Assembly (NCBI GenBank): GCA_021792185.1 | Contig: JAJYVD010000001.1 | Span: forward strand, 1-64,000 | Source of the DNA: Nitrospirota bacterium | GTDB taxonomy: Bacteria > Nitrospirota > Thermodesulfovibrionia > Thermodesulfovibrionales > Dissulfurispiraceae | DNA: 64,000 nt | Direction of reading: 5' to 3' | Shown here: piece after piece, positions 5,932-64,000 of the stretch | Position numbering within the stretch: the first letter of the stretch is position 1 | Layout: each line of letters opens with the position of its first letter | The notes under the pieces: generated by a model | Database searches by the model: none | What the model was told of the DNA's origin: nothing | Seen by the model: the letters and a program-made list of their open reading frames with translations, nothing else | Made by a program: the position numbers and the translations under genes

Positions 5932-7333
5932 TACGCAAAAGGATATCCTGATTCTTCTCTATCTTGGAGACAACATCATTATACTCCTGCACGCTGCCTG
6001 TAGTTTTTTTATTCGCCTCCATGATTATATCGCCCTTCATGAGGACTCCGAGGGCCGGACTGCTTTCCTCTATATTGCTGACAACAACGCCTTTAATCTT
6101 TTTTGTTATGCCCAGTTGCTTGAGTATCTCATCCGTTAAATCCTGAATGGATACGCCCTTTAATGAATTTATGAATTCAGCGCTCGATACGATTTGCGGC
6201 TCTATCGGCAATTCTCCTGTAGTGACTTTTGCGGTCAACTGGTTGCCGTTCCGTATGATCTTTATCTCCACTATTTTGCCCGGCTTTGTAGCAGCGACCA
6301 TGTTCTTGAACAGGAAGGGATTATCCACTTTTTTGCCGTCGTATTCTATTATCACGTCGCCGCTCTTGAGTCCGCCCTTTTCAGCAGGCCCTCCTTCCAC
6401 AACATCCACAAGCAGGACGCCCTTGTCGTCTTTCAGTTTGAACTGCTTTGCAAGTTCTGCGGTGAGCGGCTGTATCTGCACGCCGAGCCAGCCCCTTACG
6501 ACCTTGCCTTGATTAATGATGCTGTCCATAACGTTTTTCACCATATTCGACGGTATGGCAAAACCGATGCCCTGATAACCGCCTGTTACGCTGAATATTG
6601 CGGTGTTTATGCCGATAAGTTCGCCGTTGACGTTTACGAGCGCCCCGCCCGAATTGCCCGGATTTATTGCCGCGTCGGTCTGGATGAAGTCTTCATAGTC
6701 GGTAATCCCGATGCCGGACCTTCCGAGGGCGCTGACGATTCCCATTGTGATTGTCTGGCTCAAACCGTAAGGATTGCCTATCGCCAGCACTACCGCACCT
6801 ACTTTTAACTTGTCGGACTCTCCCCACCGGATTGTCGGTAAATTCGTTTCATTTATCTTGATGATGGCAATATCCGTTCTGGAATCCATCCCTACAGGTC
6901 TTCCCTTATATTCCCTGCCGTCGGCTAATTTCACGAGAATGTCTTCGGCGCCCTCTATCACATGATTGTTTGTGAGTATATAACCGTCTGCCGTCGCGAT
7001 CACGCCAGAGCCTAAATTTGTAACCTTCCTTTTTTGCGGTCCTGGATCTCCGAAAAAGCGTTTGAAGAGCGGATCGTCGAAGAAGGGATGGCGCTGCGTC
7101 TTTACCGTCCGCGATGTGGATATATTTACAACAGCCGGTTTTACCCGTTCCGCGACTTTTGCCATTGCATCGCCGAATTTGGTGAGTATTTCCGCGGCGT
7201 CGTTGTCAGAAGCGGCCGGGGCCTGCACCGGCAATAAAATCAAACTGCAAACAATAAGCAGTATCAATTTTTTTACAGCCCCATTACTCCGGCTTTCCAT
7301 CATTCCAACGATTTCTTTAAGTGTAATGTTCAT
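5885..7333 (-). CDS. Do/DegP-type periplasmic serine protease with two PDZ domains
   Basis: HtrA family: signal peptide (KKLILLIVCSLILLPVQA), trypsin-like domain with the catalytic triad in LTNNHVIEG (His), SRTDIAIIKI (Asp) and INPGNSGGALV (Ser), then PDZ1 (about 280-370) and PDZ2 (about 390-480). The 482-residue length is typical of DegP/DegQ. It degrades or refolds damaged envelope proteins. GGAGG is 8 nt before the ATG. It follows tilS by 16 nt on the same strand, and its last 47 bp overlap the end of hemW on the other strand. Confidence 0.93.
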   Translation of the reverse strand: MNITLKEIVGMMESRSNGAVKKLILLIVCSLILLPVQAPAASDNDAAEILTKFGDAMAKVAERVKPAVVNISTSRTVKTQRHPFFDDPLFKRFFGDPGPQKRKVTNLGSGVIATADGYILTNNHVIEGAEDILVKLADGREYKGRPVGMDSRTDIAIIKINETNLPTIRWGESDKLKVGAVVLAIGNPYGLSQTITMGIVSALGRSGIGITDYEDFIQTDAAINPGNSGGALVNVNGELIGINTAIFSVTGGYQGIGFAIPSNMVKNVMDSIINQGKVVRGWLGVQIQPLTAELAKQFKLKDDKGVLLVDVVEGGPAEKGGLKSGDVIIEYDGKKVDNPFLFKNMVAATKPGKIVEIKIIRNGNQLTAKVTTGELPIEPQIVSSAEFINSLKGVSIQDLTDEILKQLGITKKIKGVVVSNIEESSPALGVLMKGDIIMEANKKTTGSVQEYNDVVSKIEKNQDILLRIMRGGSPQYITIPSR

Positions 7334-7349
7334 GTAGATTGTCCTCCAT

Positions 7350-8750
7350 CTAAATTTTCATGGGCTTTATCTCAAATTTTATAACTCTTTTAGTGTCTTT
7401 AGCAACTCTATACCGCTCATCCATCCTGTACCCCATTACCCATGCAATATCATTGCCGGATATAAGCAGCGGTATCGCGTCCCTTTCATCCCTCGGTACT
7501 TTCTCGTCCACGAAATAGTCCTGAAGTTTTTTCCTCTTGCCGAATCCGGCAGGATAAAAGAAATCTCCATCGGACCTCCCCCTTATTGTCAGCGGGAGAC
7601 TCACTTTATCGGCGTCTATAAGGGCATTATTTTTGCCGTCTCCGCGGTCTTTCGATTCACCGATATCAATAACTGCGGAACGGACTACCATGAAAGATTC
7701 TTTCAATACCAGTTCTCCCGGAACCTCTACGGTATATGCGCTGAGCCTTACAGGTTGTTCGGATGTGATAATGAGAGTGGAGTATCCTTTTATGACCCTT
7801 ATGCCCTTCGGGAGATAAATCCTGTCGCCGGAATCGCCGGATTTTATAAGGTGGAGTATGTCTTCGATATGAACGAATCCTATGGCTCTCAGGCCTTTTG
7901 TCTCATCTATGGCGCGCCGCAAGACACGCCGCAGCAAAACCGTATCCATTACCTCCAGCGGGCCTGAAAAAAGCTCGATGGCGCTGTCGGTTTTTCTGCT
8001 TATCAATTTCATAAGGGTCTTTGTTACGAGCAGATCGAAATACCTTTCCTCGTCCCTGAATATATCTGATGTCCTTAAAATGGTATTTATGAAGTCTTTA
8101 TTGATGCCTTTGATGCCGGGGATGACGGTATGCCGTATCCTGTTTCGCAGGTATTCATGTTTGAGATTGGAGGAATCTACGATAAAGCCTATGCCCTCAT
8201 TGCCGAGAAATTTTTCTATCTCAACCCTTTCGGTTTCAAGGAGCGGTCTTATAATGCATAATTGTTTGCCGCCGATCACTCTAACCGGAGGGATTCCTGA
8301 CAGACCCGACGGCCCGGCGCCCCTTAAAAGCCTCATAATGACGGTCTCCGCCTGATCATCGGCATTATGGCCGAGAGCTATTTTATTCGCCCCTTTTTCT
8401 GCGGCTATTCCGCAGAGAGCGTCGTAACGCAGTTCCCGCGCTGCCTCCTGTTTGCTTAATCCCTTTTCTTTGGCGTAGGCTTTTACGTCTATATGCCCCG
8501 TGATAAATTGAATGTTCATGGAGTTGCATATGTCCGCGCAGAATTCTATTTCATCCTGCGTTTCATGCGGCCTGAGGCCGTGATCGATATAGGCGGCGGA
8601 CAAATCTATACCGGGTTCATTCAGCCTATGCAGAATTGTGAGCAGGCATACGGAATCCGGCCCGCCGGAAAGCCCTAAGAGGACATGGTCTCCGGCAGAC
8701 AGCATGGAATATTTGCGGATGGTTTTTTTGACCCTTTCGATGATATCCAT
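7350..8750 (-). CDS. tilS: tRNA(Ile)-lysidine synthase TilS
   Basis: N-type ATP pyrophosphatase that converts C34 of tRNA-Ile(CAU) to lysidine. The PP-loop LLGLSGGPDS is near residue 25, GHNADDQAETVIMRLLRGAGPSGL follows near 125, and a C-terminal TilS domain ends in PRDERDAIPLLISG. The 466-residue length fits two-domain TilS. No Shine-Dalgarno is visible; instead TATAAT ends 5 nt before the ATG, so initiation may be leaderless. The protease gene follows closely. Confidence 0.93.
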   Translation of the reverse strand: MDIIERVKKTIRKYSMLSAGDHVLLGLSGGPDSVCLLTILHRLNEPGIDLSAAYIDHGLRPHETQDEIEFCADICNSMNIQFITGHIDVKAYAKEKGLSKQEAARELRYDALCGIAAEKGANKIALGHNADDQAETVIMRLLRGAGPSGLSGIPPVRVIGGKQLCIIRPLLETERVEIEKFLGNEGIGFIVDSSNLKHEYLRNRIRHTVIPGIKGINKDFINTILRTSDIFRDEERYFDLLVTKTLMKLISRKTDSAIELFSGPLEVMDTVLLRRVLRRAIDETKGLRAIGFVHIEDILHLIKSGDSGDRIYLPKGIRVIKGYSTLIITSEQPVRLSAYTVEVPGELVLKESFMVVRSAVIDIGESKDRGDGKNNALIDADKVSLPLTIRGRSDGDFFYPAGFGKRKKLQDYFVDEKVPRDERDAIPLLISGNDIAWVMGYRMDERYRVAKDTKRVIKFEIKPMKI

Positions 8751-8806
8751 TATTTATTATACATTGTTTTTGTGTTAACCCGAAAAATGTAATTAAACCT
8801 TGAAGA

Positions 8807-8958
8807 TATGGAGGCATGGGCAGATAAAAGGCTTTACCTCGCCACCTTATTGAGGACGACTGTTACAACTTATCCAATAAAAAAATCCACAATAGACATA
8901 CTGGATTGTTTCAAAAAATTGCGAATTGTAAAGACTTTTAGCTGTTCATGCCTCCATA
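8807..8958. repeat. inverted-repeat-bounded element, type C
   Basis: Twelve-base arms TATGGAGGCATG (8807-8818) and CATGCCTCCATA (8947-8958) are perfectly complementary. After a GG/TT mismatch the pairing resumes with CAGATAAAAG/CTTTTAGCTG (one mismatch). The roughly 100 bp interior is AT-rich and has no convincing gene. Single copy in this window. It shares with elements A and B a length of about 150 bp and long perfect terminal arms. With element A it fills most of the 446 bp between tilS and the tRNA gene. Confidence 0.65.
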
Positions 8959-9010
8959 CTAAATGCATTATTTGGATTGAAAAAGAATTGCGCTATGTGC
9001 AATGAAATTA

Positions 9011-9142
9011 TGTTGGAAGACAAAGCATTTCCGCTTCATTCTCGAAAGGCATCCAGCCTTTCTCCGAAGCTGCGACAGCCTGCTTAAACATCCATGTTAC
9101 GCTCAGTCTGTCGAAGTCGCTCCAATACTTTGTCTTCCAACA
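9011..9142. repeat. structured dispersed repeat, family A copy 1
   Basis: Outer arms TGTTGGAAGACAAAG and CTTTGTCTTCCAACA (15 bp, perfect) enclose a core that recurs at 52,029-52,157 although the arms there are entirely different. Inside are a hairpin AAAGGC-atcca-GCCTTT, a longer stem, and a conserved tip CTTAAACATCCATGTTACGCT containing AACA-TCCA-TGTT. The inner hairpin changes to ACCGGC/GCCGGT in copy 2, a compensatory change that indicates selection for or generation of base pairing. Confidence 0.8.
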
Positions 9143-9196
9143 CACTTGCTTTGCTTTACAATTTCACATCCGAGTTGATAATATAAAAATCGTTTT

Positions 9197-9289
9197 GGAG
9201 AGGTGGCCGAGTCGGTCGAAGGCAGCCGCCTGCTAAGCGGTTGTGGGGGTAACACCTCACCCAGGGTTCGAATCCCTGCCTCTCCGCCA
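9197..9289 (+). tRNA. tRNA-Ser (anticodon GCU), CCA encoded
   Basis: Acceptor arms GGAGAGG and CCTCTCC pair fully; discriminator G is followed by an encoded CCA. The D arm (GCCGAGTCGGTCGAAGGC), an anticodon loop with CTGCTAAGC (GCT in the centre), a long class II variable arm and the T arm CAGGGTTCGAATCCCTG are all present. The long variable arm and anticodon identify serine, reading AGC/AGU codons. Confidence 0.97.
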
Positions 9290-12030: not shown

Positions 12031-13357
12031 CACGATAGTTATCAAAAACGGACATATTATAGACCCGTCGCAGTGCATAGACGGGATAGGGGATATTTTT
12101 ATCGAGGATGGGAAGATAGTCAGAATAGAGCAGAAGAGCGGAAGCCCGGAAGCTAAAAAGAAAAAAAATAATGACTTTCGATCTTCCGAACTTCCAAACT
12201 TCCAAATTATTGACGCTTCGGGCTTATACGTGATCCCCGGCCTTGTGGATATGCATGTCCATCTCAGGGAGCCGGGATTCGAGCATAAAGAGACCATAAA
12301 GACCGGCACTCTTGCCGCTGTAAAAGGCGGAATCACGTCTGTCTGCTGCATGCCGAATACGAATCCGGTAAACGACAACAGAACCGTTACCGAATTTATT
12401 TTAAGGAAGGCATACGACGAAGGTTCATGCAATGTATATCCCATTGGAGCGATTACGAAAGGGCAGAAGGGTGAGGAACTGGCTGAGATGGGCATGATGC
12501 GCGAGGAGGGATGCGTCGCGTTTTCCGATGACGGAGTGCCTGTAGCGAACGGCATTTTAATGAGGAGGGCGCTTGAATATTCAAAAACATTCAATGTGCC
12601 GATAATCTCCCATTGCGAAGATGTAAGCCTCTCGGAAGGCGGCTCTATGAATGAAGGCGCCCTTTCAACACAGCTTGGCCTTAGGGGCATTCCATCCGCT
12701 TCCGAAGACGTAATGGTAGCGCGGGATATTATCCTCGCGGAGCTTACAGGCGGCAGGCTTCATATTGCCCATGTGTCCACGGAAGGCTCCGTAAGGCTTA
12801 TAAGGCAGGCAAAGGAAAGGGGAGTAAACATTACGGCAGAAACCTGCCCTCATTACTTCACCATCACAGAGGACGCGGTTAAAGGTTATAACACCAATGC
12901 TAAGGTAAACCCGCCTTTGAGAAGGCAAAAAGATGTGGAAGCAGTAACGGAAGGGCTGAAAGACGGGACTATAGATGTCATAGCCACGGATCACGCGCCT
13001 CACCATAGGGACGAGAAGCTTCTTGAATTCGATAATGCCCCGTCAGGCATATCCGGATTTGAAACCGCACTGAGCCTCGGAATAGGGTTGGTAAATGCCG
13101 GAGTTCTTACGATGTCCAAGCTTATCGAGAAGACGACATTGCATCCCGCAAAAATTTTAGGTATAGACAAAGGGACATTGAAAACAGGTTCCGATGCGGA
13201 AATTGCGATAGTGGATATGAATAAAGAGTTTCATGTGAGATCGGAAAAATTCGTCTCAAAGGGCAGGAATACTCCTTTTGAGGGATGGAAACTGAAAGGT
13301 ATGCCTGTGATAACAATATGCAAAGGAAAGGTTTACGATTGGAGGATAGATGGGTAA
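12023..13357 (+). CDS. pyrC: dihydroorotase PyrC (class I, multifunctional-type)
   Basis: Zinc amidohydrolase closing carbamoyl aspartate to dihydroorotate. Metal ligands appear in [24 protein letters not shown] and DHAPHH. ATG 12023 overlaps the end of pyrB (ATGCCTGA) and matches the family start ([13 protein letters not shown]). Between GKIVRI and [11 protein letters not shown], where homologues have about a dozen residues, this protein has about 27 ([13 protein letters not shown]...SSELPNFQI) encoded by facing octamer repeats. The insert lies before the first metal ligands, probably on a surface loop. Confidence 0.95.
12127..12208 (+). repeat. in-frame facing octamer repeat inside pyrC
   Basis: A left arm of GAGCAGAA/GAGCGGAA/GCCCGGAA units (about 12127-12152) faces a right arm of CTTCCGAA/CTTCCAAA units (about 12182-12208). 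The arms are partly complementary (GGAAG/CTTCC) around an A-rich middle. They encode EQKSGSPEA and SSELPNFQ, in the same frame as in carA and the moeA-like gene. Confidence 0.8.
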
Positions 13358-37680: not shown

Positions 37681-37991
37681 AGACAAGCCTCTCGGTGAAT
37701 GACAACATCATCCCGTTGAACGAATTTACTCAAAACTACATTGCCAATATATTGTGCGGCATAGCACGCTCATTCGGAATCGATTCGGATGCCGTAACCG
37801 TGCGGGTCGATGCCGAGGGGTTCCATGTTCATACCGTCAGTGGAGAAATAGATATATCAAAAAAAGAGTTCGCAAAACAACTTATAGAGAGCACGGTCAA
37901 GGGTATGCTGTCGCCCCTGAAAGGGGTATTCTGGATGCAGGATATTACGATTACGAGCAAAATAGACGTGATGGGTCATAATCCGCAATAA
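37677..37991 (+). CDS. hypothetical protein coupled to the FmdE-like gene
   Basis: 104 residues from GTG 37677, which overlaps the preceding stop (GTGA). The core NEFTQNYIANILCGIARSFG and a C-terminal beta stretch are visible; there is no signal or metal motif. Tight overlap implies co-function with the molybdoenzyme cluster. Its stop codon forms part of the left arm of element B1. Unknown function. Confidence 0.7.
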   Translation: MKTSLSVNDNIIPLNEFTQNYIANILCGIARSFGIDSDAVTVRVDAEGFHVHTVSGEIDISKKEFAKQLIESTVKGMLSPLKGVFWMQDITITSKIDVMGHNPQ

Positions 37992-38163
37992 CATAAAGTG
38001 GAAGCCCGCTTCAACGCCTTTATAAGTGTTGTTTTTTTATGCAGAACAAAGATGGTATGTGTTTCATCGAAATAGATTCCGCCGATGCGGAGTACGAGCA
38101 TAAGAGAGTGTGTTTAAGAAATTCTATCGATAAAGTCATTGAAGCAGACTTCCACTTTATGTT
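37990..38163. repeat. inverted-repeat-bounded element, family B copy 1
   Basis: Perfect 15 bp arms AACATAAAGTGGAAG (37990-38004) and CTTCCACTTTATGTT (38149-38163). Just inside, conserved GCTTCAA/TTGAAGC forms a second pairing after a 3 nt loop. The core (AACGCCTTTATAAGTGTTG, T-run, ATGCA, AAGTCATTGAAGC) is clearly homologous to 61,975-62,142 in reverse orientation, but the outer arms of the two copies are unrelated. Confidence 0.85.
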
Positions 38164-38185
38164 GAGATACTTTGCTTACAATTAG
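38039..38185 (+). CDS. 48-codon frame carried by element B
   Basis: ATG 38039 to TAG 38183-38185, beginning MQNKDGMCFIEID and passing through RNSIDKVIEADFHFM across the right arm. The second copy encodes a similar string (MQSKDNICFI... [14 protein letters not shown]) but with a frameshift. Substitutions between copies look partly conservative, so the core may once have been coding. No Shine-Dalgarno; expression unproven. Confidence 0.35.
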   Translation: MQNKDGMCFIEIDSADAEYEHKRVCLRNSIDKVIEADFHFMLRYFAYN

Positions 38186-48697: not shown

Positions 48698-48711
48698 ATT
48701 TCCAGGTGGAT

Positions 48712-48770
48712 GCAAAAGGCGATGGGGTTCGCCATAACCGCTTCTGATTCCGAAGCTGATGACTCCTACT
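48712..48770 (+). ncRNA. fluoride riboswitch (crcB motif)
   Basis: The aptamer pattern is present: GGCGATGGGGTTCGCC (48718-48733), ATAACCGC, a short stem CTTCTGATTCCGAAGC, then TGATGACTCCTAC (48758-48770). The last segment is shared with the terminator stem downstream, so fluoride binding would prevent termination. The downstream genes include crcB and a fluoride-associated antiporter, agreeing with this identity. Confidence 0.95.
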
Positions 48771-48804
48771 CTCGGTTAAAAAATTAAGAGGGTAGGAGTT
48801 TTTT
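48762..48804 (+). terminator. riboswitch-controlled intrinsic terminator
   Basis: ACTCCTAC (48762-48769) pairs with GTAGGAGT (48792-48799), extended by TCTC/GAGg, and runs into TTTTTT. The 5' strand is the 3' end of the aptamer, the standard mutually exclusive design. Confidence 0.9.
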
Positions 48805-51632: not shown

Positions 51633-52007
51633 ATGTTGAATTTTCTTATTGTAGGAGCGGGCGGATTCCTCGGTGCGATAGCGCGGTTTGTTGTCGCCTC
51701 ATGGATCGGCCAGAAGTGGGGGAGGAGCTTTCCCCTCGGCACATTTTTCATTAATGTGAGCGGGAGCTTTTTTATAGGGCTTCTAATGTCGTTATTTACA
51801 GAGAGGTTTATGGTCAATCCTCAATGGAGGCTGCTATTGGTAGTCGGCTTCCTCGGCGCGTATACTACCTTTTCGACTTTCGAATACGAAACAGGCGGGT
51901 TGATAAAAGACGGCGAATGGCTGATTGCGTTAATGAATGTGGTATTTAGCGTGATTGCCGGATTTGTGGCATTGAAAATTGGAGAAGTAATTACCAAGGT
52001 AATATGA
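51633..52007 (+). CDS. crcB: fluoride channel/exporter CrcB (Fluc)
   Basis: 124 residues, four membrane helices. Fluc markers GAGGFLGAIARFVV, PLGTFFINVSGSFFIGL and VGFLGAYTTFSTFEYET (TTFSTF Phe box) are all there. Fluc forms dual-topology dimers that let F- leave the cell. A TATAAT box ends 4 nt before ATG, so a second promoter may exist. The fluoride riboswitch is 2.9 kb upstream. Confidence 0.96.
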   Translation: MLNFLIVGAGGFLGAIARFVVASWIGQKWGRSFPLGTFFINVSGSFFIGLLMSLFTERFMVNPQWRLLLVVGFLGAYTTFSTFEYETGGLIKDGEWLIALMNVVFSVIAGFVALKIGEVITKVI

Positions 52008-52028
52008 TATTATTTTATCGTCATTATC

Positions 52029-52157
52029 AGGCAGGATATAATATTTTTGCTCATTCTCGACCGGCATCCAAGCCGGTCTCCGAGGCTACGCCAGCCCGCT
52101 TAAACATCCATGTTACGCTTGGGCTGTCGAAGTCCGCTCAAATACTATATCCTGCCT
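52029..52157. repeat. structured dispersed repeat, family A copy 2
   Basis: Arms AGGCAGGATATA (52029-52040) and TATATCCTGCCT (52146-52157) are perfectly complementary yet unlike those of copy 1. The core (GCTCATTCTCGA, GGCATCCA, TCTCCGA, GCTTAAACATCCATGTTACGCT, CTGTCGAAGTC) matches copy 1 at 9,011-9,142. The hairpin ACCGGC/GCCGGT replaces AAAGGC/GCCTTT. It lies within the fluoride operon between crcB and the DUF190 gene, so it is transcribed. Confidence 0.85.
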
Positions 52158-52185
52158 CTATTAATTTTTCATTTAGGAGAAAATT

Positions 52186-60989: not shown

Positions 60990-61977
60990 TCTTATCTTTC
61001 AGCCCTTCGGTAACATGAATTTTACCATCTTTATCGATTATAACTCCATCAAGATTCAACCGGTTAAGGACGTCCATTCCTTTCTGAGCCCCTAAAACAA
61101 ATATGCCGGTCGCAAAGGCGTCGGTAAATGCGGCGTCCTTTGCTATTACGGTTACGCTGCGGCATTCGCTATCCGGATAACCTGTCTTGGGGTTCAGAAG
61201 GTGATGGTATCTCCTGCCGTCTTTTATAAAGAATTTTTGGTAATCGCCGGATGTCGATATAGCCATATCGGAGAGACCGACGGTTGCCAGAATTTCATCT
61301 TTATCTGTTTGCTGTCTCGGATTTTGAATTCCCACATTCCACAAACTGCCATCGGGTTTTATGCCGAATGTTTTAATGTCTCCGGCAACTGCGACAATGC
61401 CGGCCATTATGCCCTGTTGTTTAAGAATTTCGACCGCCTTATCAGCCGCATATCCTTTTATAATGCCTCCGAGGTCTATCTGCATACCTTTTGTTTTAAG
61501 AAAGACCGTTGACGCTTCTTTGTCGATAACGATATTTTTATACCCGACTAATTTTAATTTTTCTTTGACGATTGCTCTATCCGGAATTATTTTTTTCTGA
61601 AAATTCCACAGGCGCACCAGGGGGCCGACTGTAACGTCAAACGCGCCCTCCGTGTTTTCGGATACGTACAATGCCTTTTCTATTATTTCCGTGGTTTCGG
61701 GAGACACCCTGACCGGTTTATTGCCGGCGTATCTGTTAATCGCTGATATTTCGCTGTCCTCGCTGTAAAAATTCAACAGTTTCGCAAGCCGTTCCAGTTC
61801 AGCGAATGCCTTATCTATAGCTGCCTTTTCCTCCGAGTCTGAAGAAACCGTAATGGAGACTATTGTATACATTGAAGATCGCGTCTCTTTGTAAAGTTTT
61901 TCTTGAGAAGGGGAGCATGAAAGCAGCATAGCAGTAGAGCAGAAGAACAGCAATCCATAAACAAAACCTTGCTGCAT
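60961..61977 (-). CDS. apbE: FAD:protein FMN transferase ApbE (lipoprotein)
   Basis: About 338 residues from ATG 61977. Lipoprotein signal with lipobox LLSC near residue 21 ([14 protein letters not shown]). ApbE motifs: [70 protein letters not shown]. It attaches FMN to threonines of exported flavoproteins such as Rnf or Nqr subunits. The in-frame ATG 62028 would add residues entirely encoded by element B2. The signal-peptide core is written in octamer repeats. Confidence 0.94.
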
Positions 61978-62142
61978 GAAGGTCAGATTTGCTTCAATGA
62001 CTTTATCAACAGCACCTTTTAACCACATAGTCTTATACCCGTCATCCGCATCGGTGGTATCCTCTTAATGAAACATATATTATCTTTGCTTTGCATAAAA
62101 AACAACACTTATAAAGGCGTTGAAGCGAACCTGACCTTCATG
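61975..62142. repeat. inverted-repeat-bounded element, family B copy 2
   Basis: Arms CATGAAGGTCAG (61975-61986) and CTGACCTTCATG (62131-62142), perfect 12 bp, unlike those of copy 1. Conserved GCTTCAA/TTGAAGC follows inside, and the core is homologous to 37,990-38,163 on the opposite strand. The left arm lies across the apbE start codon and the right arm ends 3 nt before the uvrA stop. Confidence 0.85.
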
Positions 62143-62145
62143 TCA

Positions 62146-64000
62146 TTACGGAGCATGGTCATATATCTTCTTCGCCAAATATCTTCCCGTATACGATTCT
62201 TTATTCTTTGCTACTTCTTCCGGTGTCCCGGTTGCAACTATTTTGCCGCCTTCGTCTCCGCCTTCAGGCCCGAGGTCTATGATATAGTCGGCTGATTTTA
62301 TTATATCAAGGTCGTGCTCGATAACTATAACGCTGTTCCCCATATCGACAAGCCCGTTTATCACGTTCAGAAGCCTCTGTATGTCCACGAAGTGGAGGCC
62401 TGTTGTCGGTTCATCGAGTATGTATAGAGTATTGCCTGTAGCTTTTTTCCCGAGTTCTTTTGAGAGCCTTAATCTCTGAGCCTCTCCGCCTGAAAGGGTG
62501 GTCGCGGGCTGTCCTAATTTTAAATAGCCCATTCCCATGTCTTCGAGAATATCGAGACGCTGTTTTAGGGGAGGGATAACGCTGAAGAATTCGAGGGCCT
62601 CGGATATGGTCATTTCAAGGACATCGGAAATATTTTTGTCTTTGTAACGTATATCAAGAGTTTCTTTATTGTATCTTTTGCCTTTACAAACATCGCAGGT
62701 AACATACACATCGGGAAGAAAATGCATCTCTATTTTTTTCAGGCCGTCGCCCTGACATGCCTCGCACCTGCCTCCGGATATATTGAAACTGAACCGGGAT
62801 GCTTTATATCCCCTCACCCTCGATTCGGGGAGTTGAGAGAAAAGGTCCCTGATAAAAGTGAAAATGCCGGTATATGTAGAAGGGTTCGACCGTGGAGTTC
62901 TTCCGAGCGGAGACTGGTCAATGCATATTACCTTATCGACCTTTTCCATACCTTCTATCTTTTTATATTGCCCTGGAAGCAGGCTGCTTTTATATAAATA
63001 CCTCGACAGCGCCTTATAAAGAATTTCGAATATCAACGTGCTCTTGCCGGAGCCTGAAACCCCGGTCACGCATACAAATACTCCAAGGGGGATTGAAACG
63101 GCGACGTTTTTCAGATTGAACTCGGATGCGCCTGTAATCTTTAAAAACTCCTTCGAGTTCCTTTTTTTTACGGATGCCGGTATGGCAAGCTGTCCGGTGA
63201 GATATTTTCCGGTAATAGACGCGGTATCATTCATAATATCAGGAGGCGCGCCTGTCGATATTATCCATCCACCGTTTTTACCCGCGCCGGGCCCCATATC
63301 TATGACATGATCCGCTGTTCTTATAGTCTCTTCGTCATGTTCGACAATAATTATACTATTGCCTGCGTCTCTTATCAGAGAGAGGCTTTTAAGAAGTTTC
63401 GCGCAATCCCTCGGATGCAGGCCGATGCTCGGCTCATCAAGCACGTAAAGCACGCCGGTAAGGGAAGAGCCTATCTGCGTGGCGAGCCTTATCCTCTGCG
63501 CCTCTCCGCCCGAAAGGGTAAGGGAAGGCCTGTTGAGGGTTAAATATCCGAGCCCCACCTTGTCGAGAAAAGAGAGCCTGTCCTTTACCTCTTTAAGCAC
63601 CCGCCTGGAGATTACAGTCTCTCGCTCCGAAAGCCTCAATCCTCGCACAAAGTCCCCGGCATCTTTAACGGACATTTTTGAGAATTCTCCTATGCTTATG
63701 TCATGGAGCTTTATGTTCAACGACTCTTTCCTCAATCTCATGCCGCCGCATGCCTTGCATGGAACCATATGGGTCAACTCTTCTTCCGCGATTCCAAACC
63801 CAGGACTCTGAAACTCAAACGCATCGCTTATGCCTTCAAATCCTATGCCTTTACACCTGGGGCATGCGCCGTATTTGCTGTTAAAAGAAAACAACATCGG
63901 CTCTATCTCAGGATAGCTGATGCCGCACTGAGGGCAGGCCAATGTCCTGCTGAACGGAATATCCCTGTCTTCGTCTATAAGGTTGATAACGACCGTATCC
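62146..64000 (-). CDS. uvrA: excinuclease ABC subunit A (5' part outside the window)
   Basis: About 617 C-terminal residues of roughly 940. Two zinc-ribbon regions (CPQCGISYPE... CPRCKG; CEACQGDG...CDVCKG), ABC signature LSGGEAQRIRL twice, Walker A GVSGSGKSTLI, and DEPSIGLHPRD / DEPTTGLHFVD. Recognises DNA damage for nucleotide-excision repair. The frame is open to the window edge, so the start lies further right. It precedes apbE on the same strand with element B2 between. Confidence 0.97.
   Translation of the reverse strand, partial: DTVVINLIDEDRDIPFSRTLACPQCGISYPEIEPMLFSFNSKYGACPRCKGIGFEGISDAFEFQSPGFGIAEEELTHMVPCKACGGMRLRKESLNIKLHDISIGEFSKMSVKDAGDFVRGLRLSERETVISRRVLKEVKDRLSFLDKVGLGYLTLNRPSLTLSGGEAQRIRLATQIGSSLTGVLYVLDEPSIGLHPRDCAKLLKSLSLIRDAGNSIIIVEHDEETIRTADHVIDMGPGAGKNGGWIISTGAPPDIMNDTASITGKYLTGQLAIPASVKKRNSKEFLKITGASEFNLKNVAVSIPLGVFVCVTGVSGSGKSTLIFEILYKALSRYLYKSSLLPGQYKKIEGMEKVDKVICIDQSPLGRTPRSNPSTYTGIFTFIRDLFSQLPESRVRGYKASRFSFNISGGRCEACQGDGLKKIEMHFLPDVYVTCDVCKGKRYNKETLDIRYKDKNISDVLEMTISEALEFFSVIPPLKQRLDILEDMGMGYLKLGQPATTLSGGEAQRLRLSKELGKKATGNTLYILDEPTTGLHFVDIQRLLNVINGLVDMGNSVIVIEHDLDIIKSADYIIDLGPEGGDEGGKIVATGTPEEVAKNKESYTGRYLAKKIYDHAP

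Follow-up and report, generated by a model that had tools for sequence, protein, structure and literature searches.

The element at positions 9011–9142 of the window (the whole stretch of 64,000 nucleotides that was analyzed) is one copy of a repeated, dispersed and mobile family, structured and covarying around a conserved centre, which in one genome (G020) takes the form of a 184–185 bp unit. The best explanation, and one that we consider on balance probable, is a MITE that carries as cargo a TwoAYGGAY-like, probably CsrA-binding, RNA module. Taken by itself, the centre is a likely candidate for a CsrA-binding RNA module of the TwoAYGGAY type.

A structured, covarying repeat with a conserved centre

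Both copies that the initial annotation had reported in the window were confirmed, at 9011–9142 and 52029–52157, and they have in common a core that includes the tip AACATCCATGTT (Table 1). Covariance model R1 matched hairpin P2 of copy 1 at C75:9032–9070 (minus strand, E 2e-13) and of copy 2 at C75:52047–52086 (minus strand, E 1.7e-13), and RNA fold z-scores of the window copies were −5.6 to −8.4. The compensatory swap described for the inner hairpin was also borne out, P2 being AAAGGC/GCCTTT in copy 1 and ACCGGC/GCCGGT in copy 2. The arms had been described as perfectly complementary within each copy and unrelated between copies, and this description needed amending: they are complementary, but copy 1 has one C.A mismatch and copy 2 has two A.A mismatches, and it is the outer ~7 bp that are copy-specific, whereas the inner parts (TTGGAAGACAAAGCATT and CAGGCAGGATATAATATT) agree at 9 of 15 inner positions.

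Table 1. Parts of the two window copies, with the segment around copy 2 that two relatives lack
Feature	Positions	Strand	Remarks
Copy 1, left arm of outer stem P1 (TGTTGGAAGACAAAGCATT)	9011–9029		Pairs with 9124–9142, one C.A mismatch; fold
Copy 1, hairpin P2	9033–9070	minus	Loop TCC at 9052–9054, GGA on minus strand; fold
Copy 1, hairpin P3	9073–9113	minus	Invariant tip AACATCCATGTT, on minus strand AACAUGGAUGUU; fold
Copy 1, right arm of P1 (AATACTTTGTCTTCCAACA)	9124–9142		Fold
Copy 2, left arm of P1 (AGGCAGGATATAATATT)	52029–52045		Fold
Copy 2, hairpin P2, ACCGGC/GCCGGT	52049–52086	minus	Loop TCC at 52067–52069; fold
Copy 2, hairpin P3, invariant tip as in copy 1	52090–52129	minus	TCC at 52107–52109; fold
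Copy 2, right arm of P1 (AATACTATATCCTGCCT)	52141–52157		Fold
Segment around copy 2, present here	51992–52171		G012 and G019 have ~10 bp instead, between the putative crcB and the next gene

A search of the genome and its relatives had been suggested as a check; run with a covariance model of P2, it returned 97 matches in the organism's own genome (a draft Thermodesulfovibrionales genome of 2.65 Mb) and 2–42 in most of the related genera of the same family. The own genome also gave 40 scored BLAST places and 50 places with the tip pattern, exact or nearly so, with 0 for a reversed control pattern. In a sample of the phylum, 15 of 148 genomes carry the element (P2 model, E≤1e-7). Named relatives with the element are Nitrospirae/Thermodesulfovibrionales genomes such as GWB2_47_37 and DeMMO5_1, and the exact P2 pattern also matches Desulfurivibrio, Desulfobulbaceae, Desulfobacterales, Nitrospinota, a bin labelled Nitrospira japonica and one Spirochaetes MAG; the pattern by which relatives were found required TCC in P2 only and left P3 free. 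The plasmid and phage collections that we searched gave 0 matches to the element, and three viral-contig matches were discarded because the rest of the element was absent. On a Desulfobacterales contig (L176, 6810–6918) two elements face each other with at least 90 bp of perfect inverted flanks, possibly an assembly fold-back. This locus and L199, both with very long arms that may be such fold-backs, were left out of the analysis.

On the strand of the initial finding, a copy runs from one arm through CCGCT(TC)ATTCTCG, the P2a stem, an (N)TCC loop, P2a', TCCGA(A/G)G, P3 with its TCC tip and an end of the (G)CCGAAG(T)CCGCT type to the second arm. On the reverse strand the arms form an outer stem, P1, that encloses hairpins P3 and P2, with GGA in each apical loop. 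P1 pairs over ~18–19 bp within a copy, and the pairing ends sharply at 17–19 bp in 53 of 103 copies. Across these 103 copies, arm positions 0–17 (numbered from the inner end) are mostly 73–98% Watson-Crick, with two inner positions lower (56% and 64%), and the fraction drops to 0.55 at position 18 and 0.38 at position 19. The outer 7 bp (positions 11–17) are 86% Watson-Crick within copies versus 27–76%, with a mean of ~40%, between copies, and positions 13–17 pair between copies at 0.27–0.37; the outer part of the arm is therefore copy-specific and self-complementary. The inner arm has a consensus near GGMAGRACAAAGCATT, with GGAAGACAAAG common to many copies, so the arms are not wholly unrelated.

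The covariation score of P2 was 0.363, versus 0.096 for shuffled alignments, with 58 cells changed on both sides and 0 G.U pairs among 380 cells. Of 124 copies, 122 have TCC at the centre of P3; distant relatives have a different P3 stem, and nearly all keep the TCC/GGA tip, L162 being an exception. GGA occurs 3.9 times per core on the reverse strand versus 0.27 on the given strand, and on the reverse strand the P2 loop reads CNGGAUG and the P3 tip mostly AACAUGGAUGUU or GACAUGGAUGUC. Folding, too, favors the reverse strand, in 99 of 100 copies (mean −61.4 versus −50.5 kcal/mol) and in both window copies. Inner-arm mismatches on the given strand comprise 136 A.C versus 17 G.T, which is G.U wobble on the reverse strand, and one-sided arm differences between orthologous copies run 17:3 in the same direction; the outer arms lack this bias (28:22). 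The A.C excess is present in every gene context, irrespective of the direction of the neighboring gene, and because the strand asymmetry does not flip with gene orientation we rejected read-through mRNA as the selected molecule. The lack of G.U in P2 and the unbiased outer arms fit simple RNA selection poorly. The proposal of a structured RNA whose stems covary nevertheless gained support from compensatory changes in the arms, P2 and P3 (in about 100 copies and orthologues), from strand-specific folding and from the invariant GGA loops.

The window contains further repeats. Directly before copy 1, at 8775–8981, lies a member of a second family (TATGGAGGCATGGGCAGATAAAAGGC...) with inverted arms at 8807–8837 and 8928–8958, which has many copies in G001, G002 and G004. 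Another inverted repeat family (AACATAAAGTGGAAGCCCGC...), with arms of 30–34 bp, has two copies in opposite orientation at 37977–38178 and 61958–62157. An 8-nt unit (GCGGAAGA-like) forms short tandem arrays at 12109, 13852, 19412, 40566 and 61902, and at several of these five places it faces its complement (CTTCCGAA). Copy 2 sits between crcB and the next gene, both named provisionally from reading the sequence, and a fluoride riboswitch (RF01734) lies at 48709–48775, ~3 kb upstream of crcB.

Mobility of the family and history of its arms

The clearest record of movement comes from G020, where a recent burst has left copies as 184–185 bp units with terminal inverted repeats, the unit ends being CC[CG]AGAATTGTCATT and AATGACAATTTTGGG. 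Target duplications of 5–6 bp flank 11 of its 15 copies, versus 29% by chance; examples are TTTATC/TTTATC, TTTAAC/TTTAAC and GATCAA/GATCAA. The family has features of a MITE, namely a dispersed, non-coding unit of constant length, terminal inverted repeats and target duplication. Most arm positions in G020 pair equally well within and between copies, which indicates that young copies have common arms. G003 has at least one other type of terminal repeat (subclass AGAGC..CTAAC..AATGA), and terminal repeats vary between genomes around a common centre. In the own genome and close relatives the outer end ATTTATGAATAAT, ~27 nt from the arm, is kept in ~12 of 103 right flanks, and the own genome has it at four places, all adjoining copies. 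The own genome and its close relatives, whose copies are older, showed no enrichment of target duplications, probably owing to that age.

A transposase supplied in trans would move such an element; looking for a related autonomous transposon, we identified no transposase. Carrier genomes often have Y1 transposase genes, but G002, with many copies, has none, and the Y1 genes that we inspected in G000 (the own genome), G001 and G012 had no element within ~1 kb. Y1/RAYT was accordingly rejected as the mobilizer. REP sequences with their RAYT (Y1) transposases resemble the element as intergenic palindromes near gene 3' ends and differ from it on these same points, and the target duplications indicate a transposase of another type. 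Like ERIC, NEMIS/Correia, bcr1 and YPAL (PMC2267715), the element is intergenic and non-autonomous, in the 100–200 bp class, with long hairpins and many copies; we found no sequence relation to any of these, and unlike them it has a centre conserved across phyla, differing terminal repeats and copy-specific, compensated arms.

Matching loci with and without the element were found for L086 (G001) versus G000, L019/L098 versus G002, L054 versus G001, L026 (window copy 2) versus G012, L268 versus G012, L039 versus G019 and, less cleanly, L053 versus G001. At these seven empty loci neither outer arm was present above shuffled expectation, and since the arm sequences are absent we rejected insertion into pre-existing palindromes. 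In place of copy 1, at its tRNA-Ser locus, G002 has ~2.1 kb (C72, ~7171–9287; L134/L129), within which an ORF reads as a putative caspase-like and formylglycine-generating-enzyme-like (SUMF) protein.

About 16 loci are shared between genomes in the same orientation, and their arms carry 18 double Watson-Crick changes, of which 11 are of the transversion and 7 of the transition type. At orthologous loci the decay of the outer ends has not abolished pairing in the arms and core; once a copy has inserted, its arms do drift, yet both sides change and P1 stays at ~18–19 bp. In the simplest history the whole unit would insert, its outer ends would decay and P1 would drift in pairs. Copies at one locus can also differ by a replaced tip (L087/L105) or a changed subclass (L042/L101; L052/L092/L123). 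In about seven cases the core faces opposite ways at a shared locus. Homology seems to extend to the arms in L046/L271 and L024/L088/L267, with p only 0.04–0.06 versus random arms; we therefore do not treat core inversion as a proven fact, and independent insertion at these loci is possible.

The centre as a candidate CsrA-binding module

The SELEX consensus for CsrA is RUACARGGAUGU, its GGA lying in the loop of a hairpin (PMC7652899). The P3 tip UAACAUGGAUGU fits this consensus at nearly every position, and on the reverse strand GGA stands in both the P2 loop and the P3 tip. A variable external stem around two hairpins whose loops are of the GGA type is also the architecture of TwoAYGGAY (RF01731, clan CL00106), which was described from gut metagenomes, Clostridiales and Gammaproteobacteria (PMC2864571) and is a proposed CsrA-binding sRNA with a poorly conserved external stem, for which validation has been called for (Gardner and Eldai, 2014, PMC4333381). 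The two have in common this poorly conserved stem and the two hairpins with (A)YGGAY-type loops, and the full-length alignment falls on the strand that we infer for the element; they differ in that PMC2864571 did not describe TwoAYGGAY as a mobile element repeated many times within a genome. Rfam gave no useful match for the element, either at its gathering thresholds or with E relaxed to 3. In a restricted scan of 171 bases, TwoAYGGAY aligned end to end at 8997–9156 on the minus strand (15.0 bits, E 8.5), and its sole match below E 10 in the whole genome was another copy of the element (C9:4313–4470, minus strand, 18.3 bits), on the same strand as the P2 model match there. These scores of 15–18 bits do not reach the gathering cut-off of 43 bits and are not significant alone, and we accordingly do not claim membership in TwoAYGGAY. 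CsrB/RsmB-type sRNAs (RF00018), of the same clan, likewise repeat GGA in hairpin loops and linkers; CsrB, however, is one long dedicated gene, whereas the element offers two hairpin sites per copy in many intergenic copies with no recognized promoter or terminator.

The distribution of CsrA points in the same direction. In the phylum sample CsrA is present in 14 of 15 element-bearing genomes versus 78 of 133 others (Fisher p 0.0096, a comparison confounded by phylogeny), the sole exception being G012, which is 96% complete and has 28 copies and no CsrA that we could find. In a sample of relatives CsrA is present in 16 of 18 element-bearing genomes versus 6 of 21 others, carriers being counted at E≤1e-9 with weaker matches in G024, G033 and G036 excluded; G013 (66% complete) is the other exception there. 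In three families (f4, f5 and f9), only those of the listed genera that have CsrA carry the element. The own genome has csrA and then fliW, adjacent to each other, in a locus (G000:C78; 966–2356 of L044) that includes a copy of the element immediately downstream of fliW, its reverse strand co-directional with csrA and fliW.

As a CsrA-binding RNA of the CsrB clan/TwoAYGGAY kind, the reverse strand would be transcribed and would titrate CsrA in trans, or act in cis where that strand lies within an mRNA. How the reverse strand gets transcribed is the main weakness of this reading. A copy typically begins 5–30 nt past a stop codon, few copies lie between divergently oriented genes, and we found no promoter or terminator shared among them. 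The reverse strand is mostly antisense to the upstream gene (+E+ 49 versus −E− 23), nearly always so in the CCGCTCATT subclass, so that read-through would mostly yield the wrong strand. One conjecture for this bias is that the sense orientation is avoided in mRNAs, should the RNA indeed bind CsrA.

Alternative explanations and significance

An ordinary MITE with a long central palindrome would need no RNA: its core would be conserved because transposition requires it in the form of folded single-stranded DNA, or because a DNA-binding protein of the host does, with the GGA loops recognized by that protein. We regard this as possible but unlikely. Mobility has been demonstrated, P2 lacks G.U pairs, the copies share no promoter or terminator, and a strand asymmetry independent of gene orientation means that read-through mRNA is not the selected molecule, all of which suit such an element well. 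Transposition alone, however, would not select for orthologous arms and core that stay paired once the outer ends have decayed, nor does it sit easily with terminal repeats that vary between genomes around a common centre, and both the GGA-in-loop pattern and the co-occurrence with CsrA would have to be coincidences.

Mutation might also do the work ascribed to selection in the arms. Template switching (quasi-palindrome repair) would copy one arm onto the other and sometimes invert the core; this is a proposal about arm evolution, and it can stand alongside the other accounts of the element itself. The prevalence of transversion-type over transition-type double changes, the absence of wobble bias from the outer arms and the opposite cores between homologous-looking arms at several shared loci are what it would produce, but that homology is borderline enough to allow independent insertion, and neither the sharp end at 18–19 bp nor a conserved single-stranded core is predicted. 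As the main cause of arm complementarity we think it rather unlikely. The initial annotation had also offered an element that regenerates its arms from local sequence. Cores with 0–1 differences do carry different arms (L022, L014), and the outer 7 bp look random between copies. Against this, the suggested comparison with empty sites found neither arm at the seven matching loci, and recent G020 copies at different loci keep largely the same arms, the very observation named beforehand as contradicting such regeneration, inside a unit bounded by terminal repeats and target duplications. Rebuilding of arms from flanking sequence at each insertion is thus highly improbable.

For the preferred reading, a MITE with a probable CsrA-binding module as cargo, we found no precedent of a MITE carrying a TwoAYGGAY-type module in the open literature that we searched. 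A tentative extension, which we consider doubtful, is that the mobile copies, dozens per genome, jointly form a dispersed CsrA sponge, spread by selfish DNA, that replaces a dedicated CsrB gene; if true, CsrA activity in these lineages would be set partly by transposition. Csr-type RNAs outside the Gammaproteobacteria are a standing open question, and one that is mobile and multi-copy in Nitrospirota and Desulfobacterota alike would supply many natural replicates and hints at how such RNAs arise and spread. The hairpin arms, which diversify by paired changes after insertion, offer a clear case in which selection can be separated from template switching.
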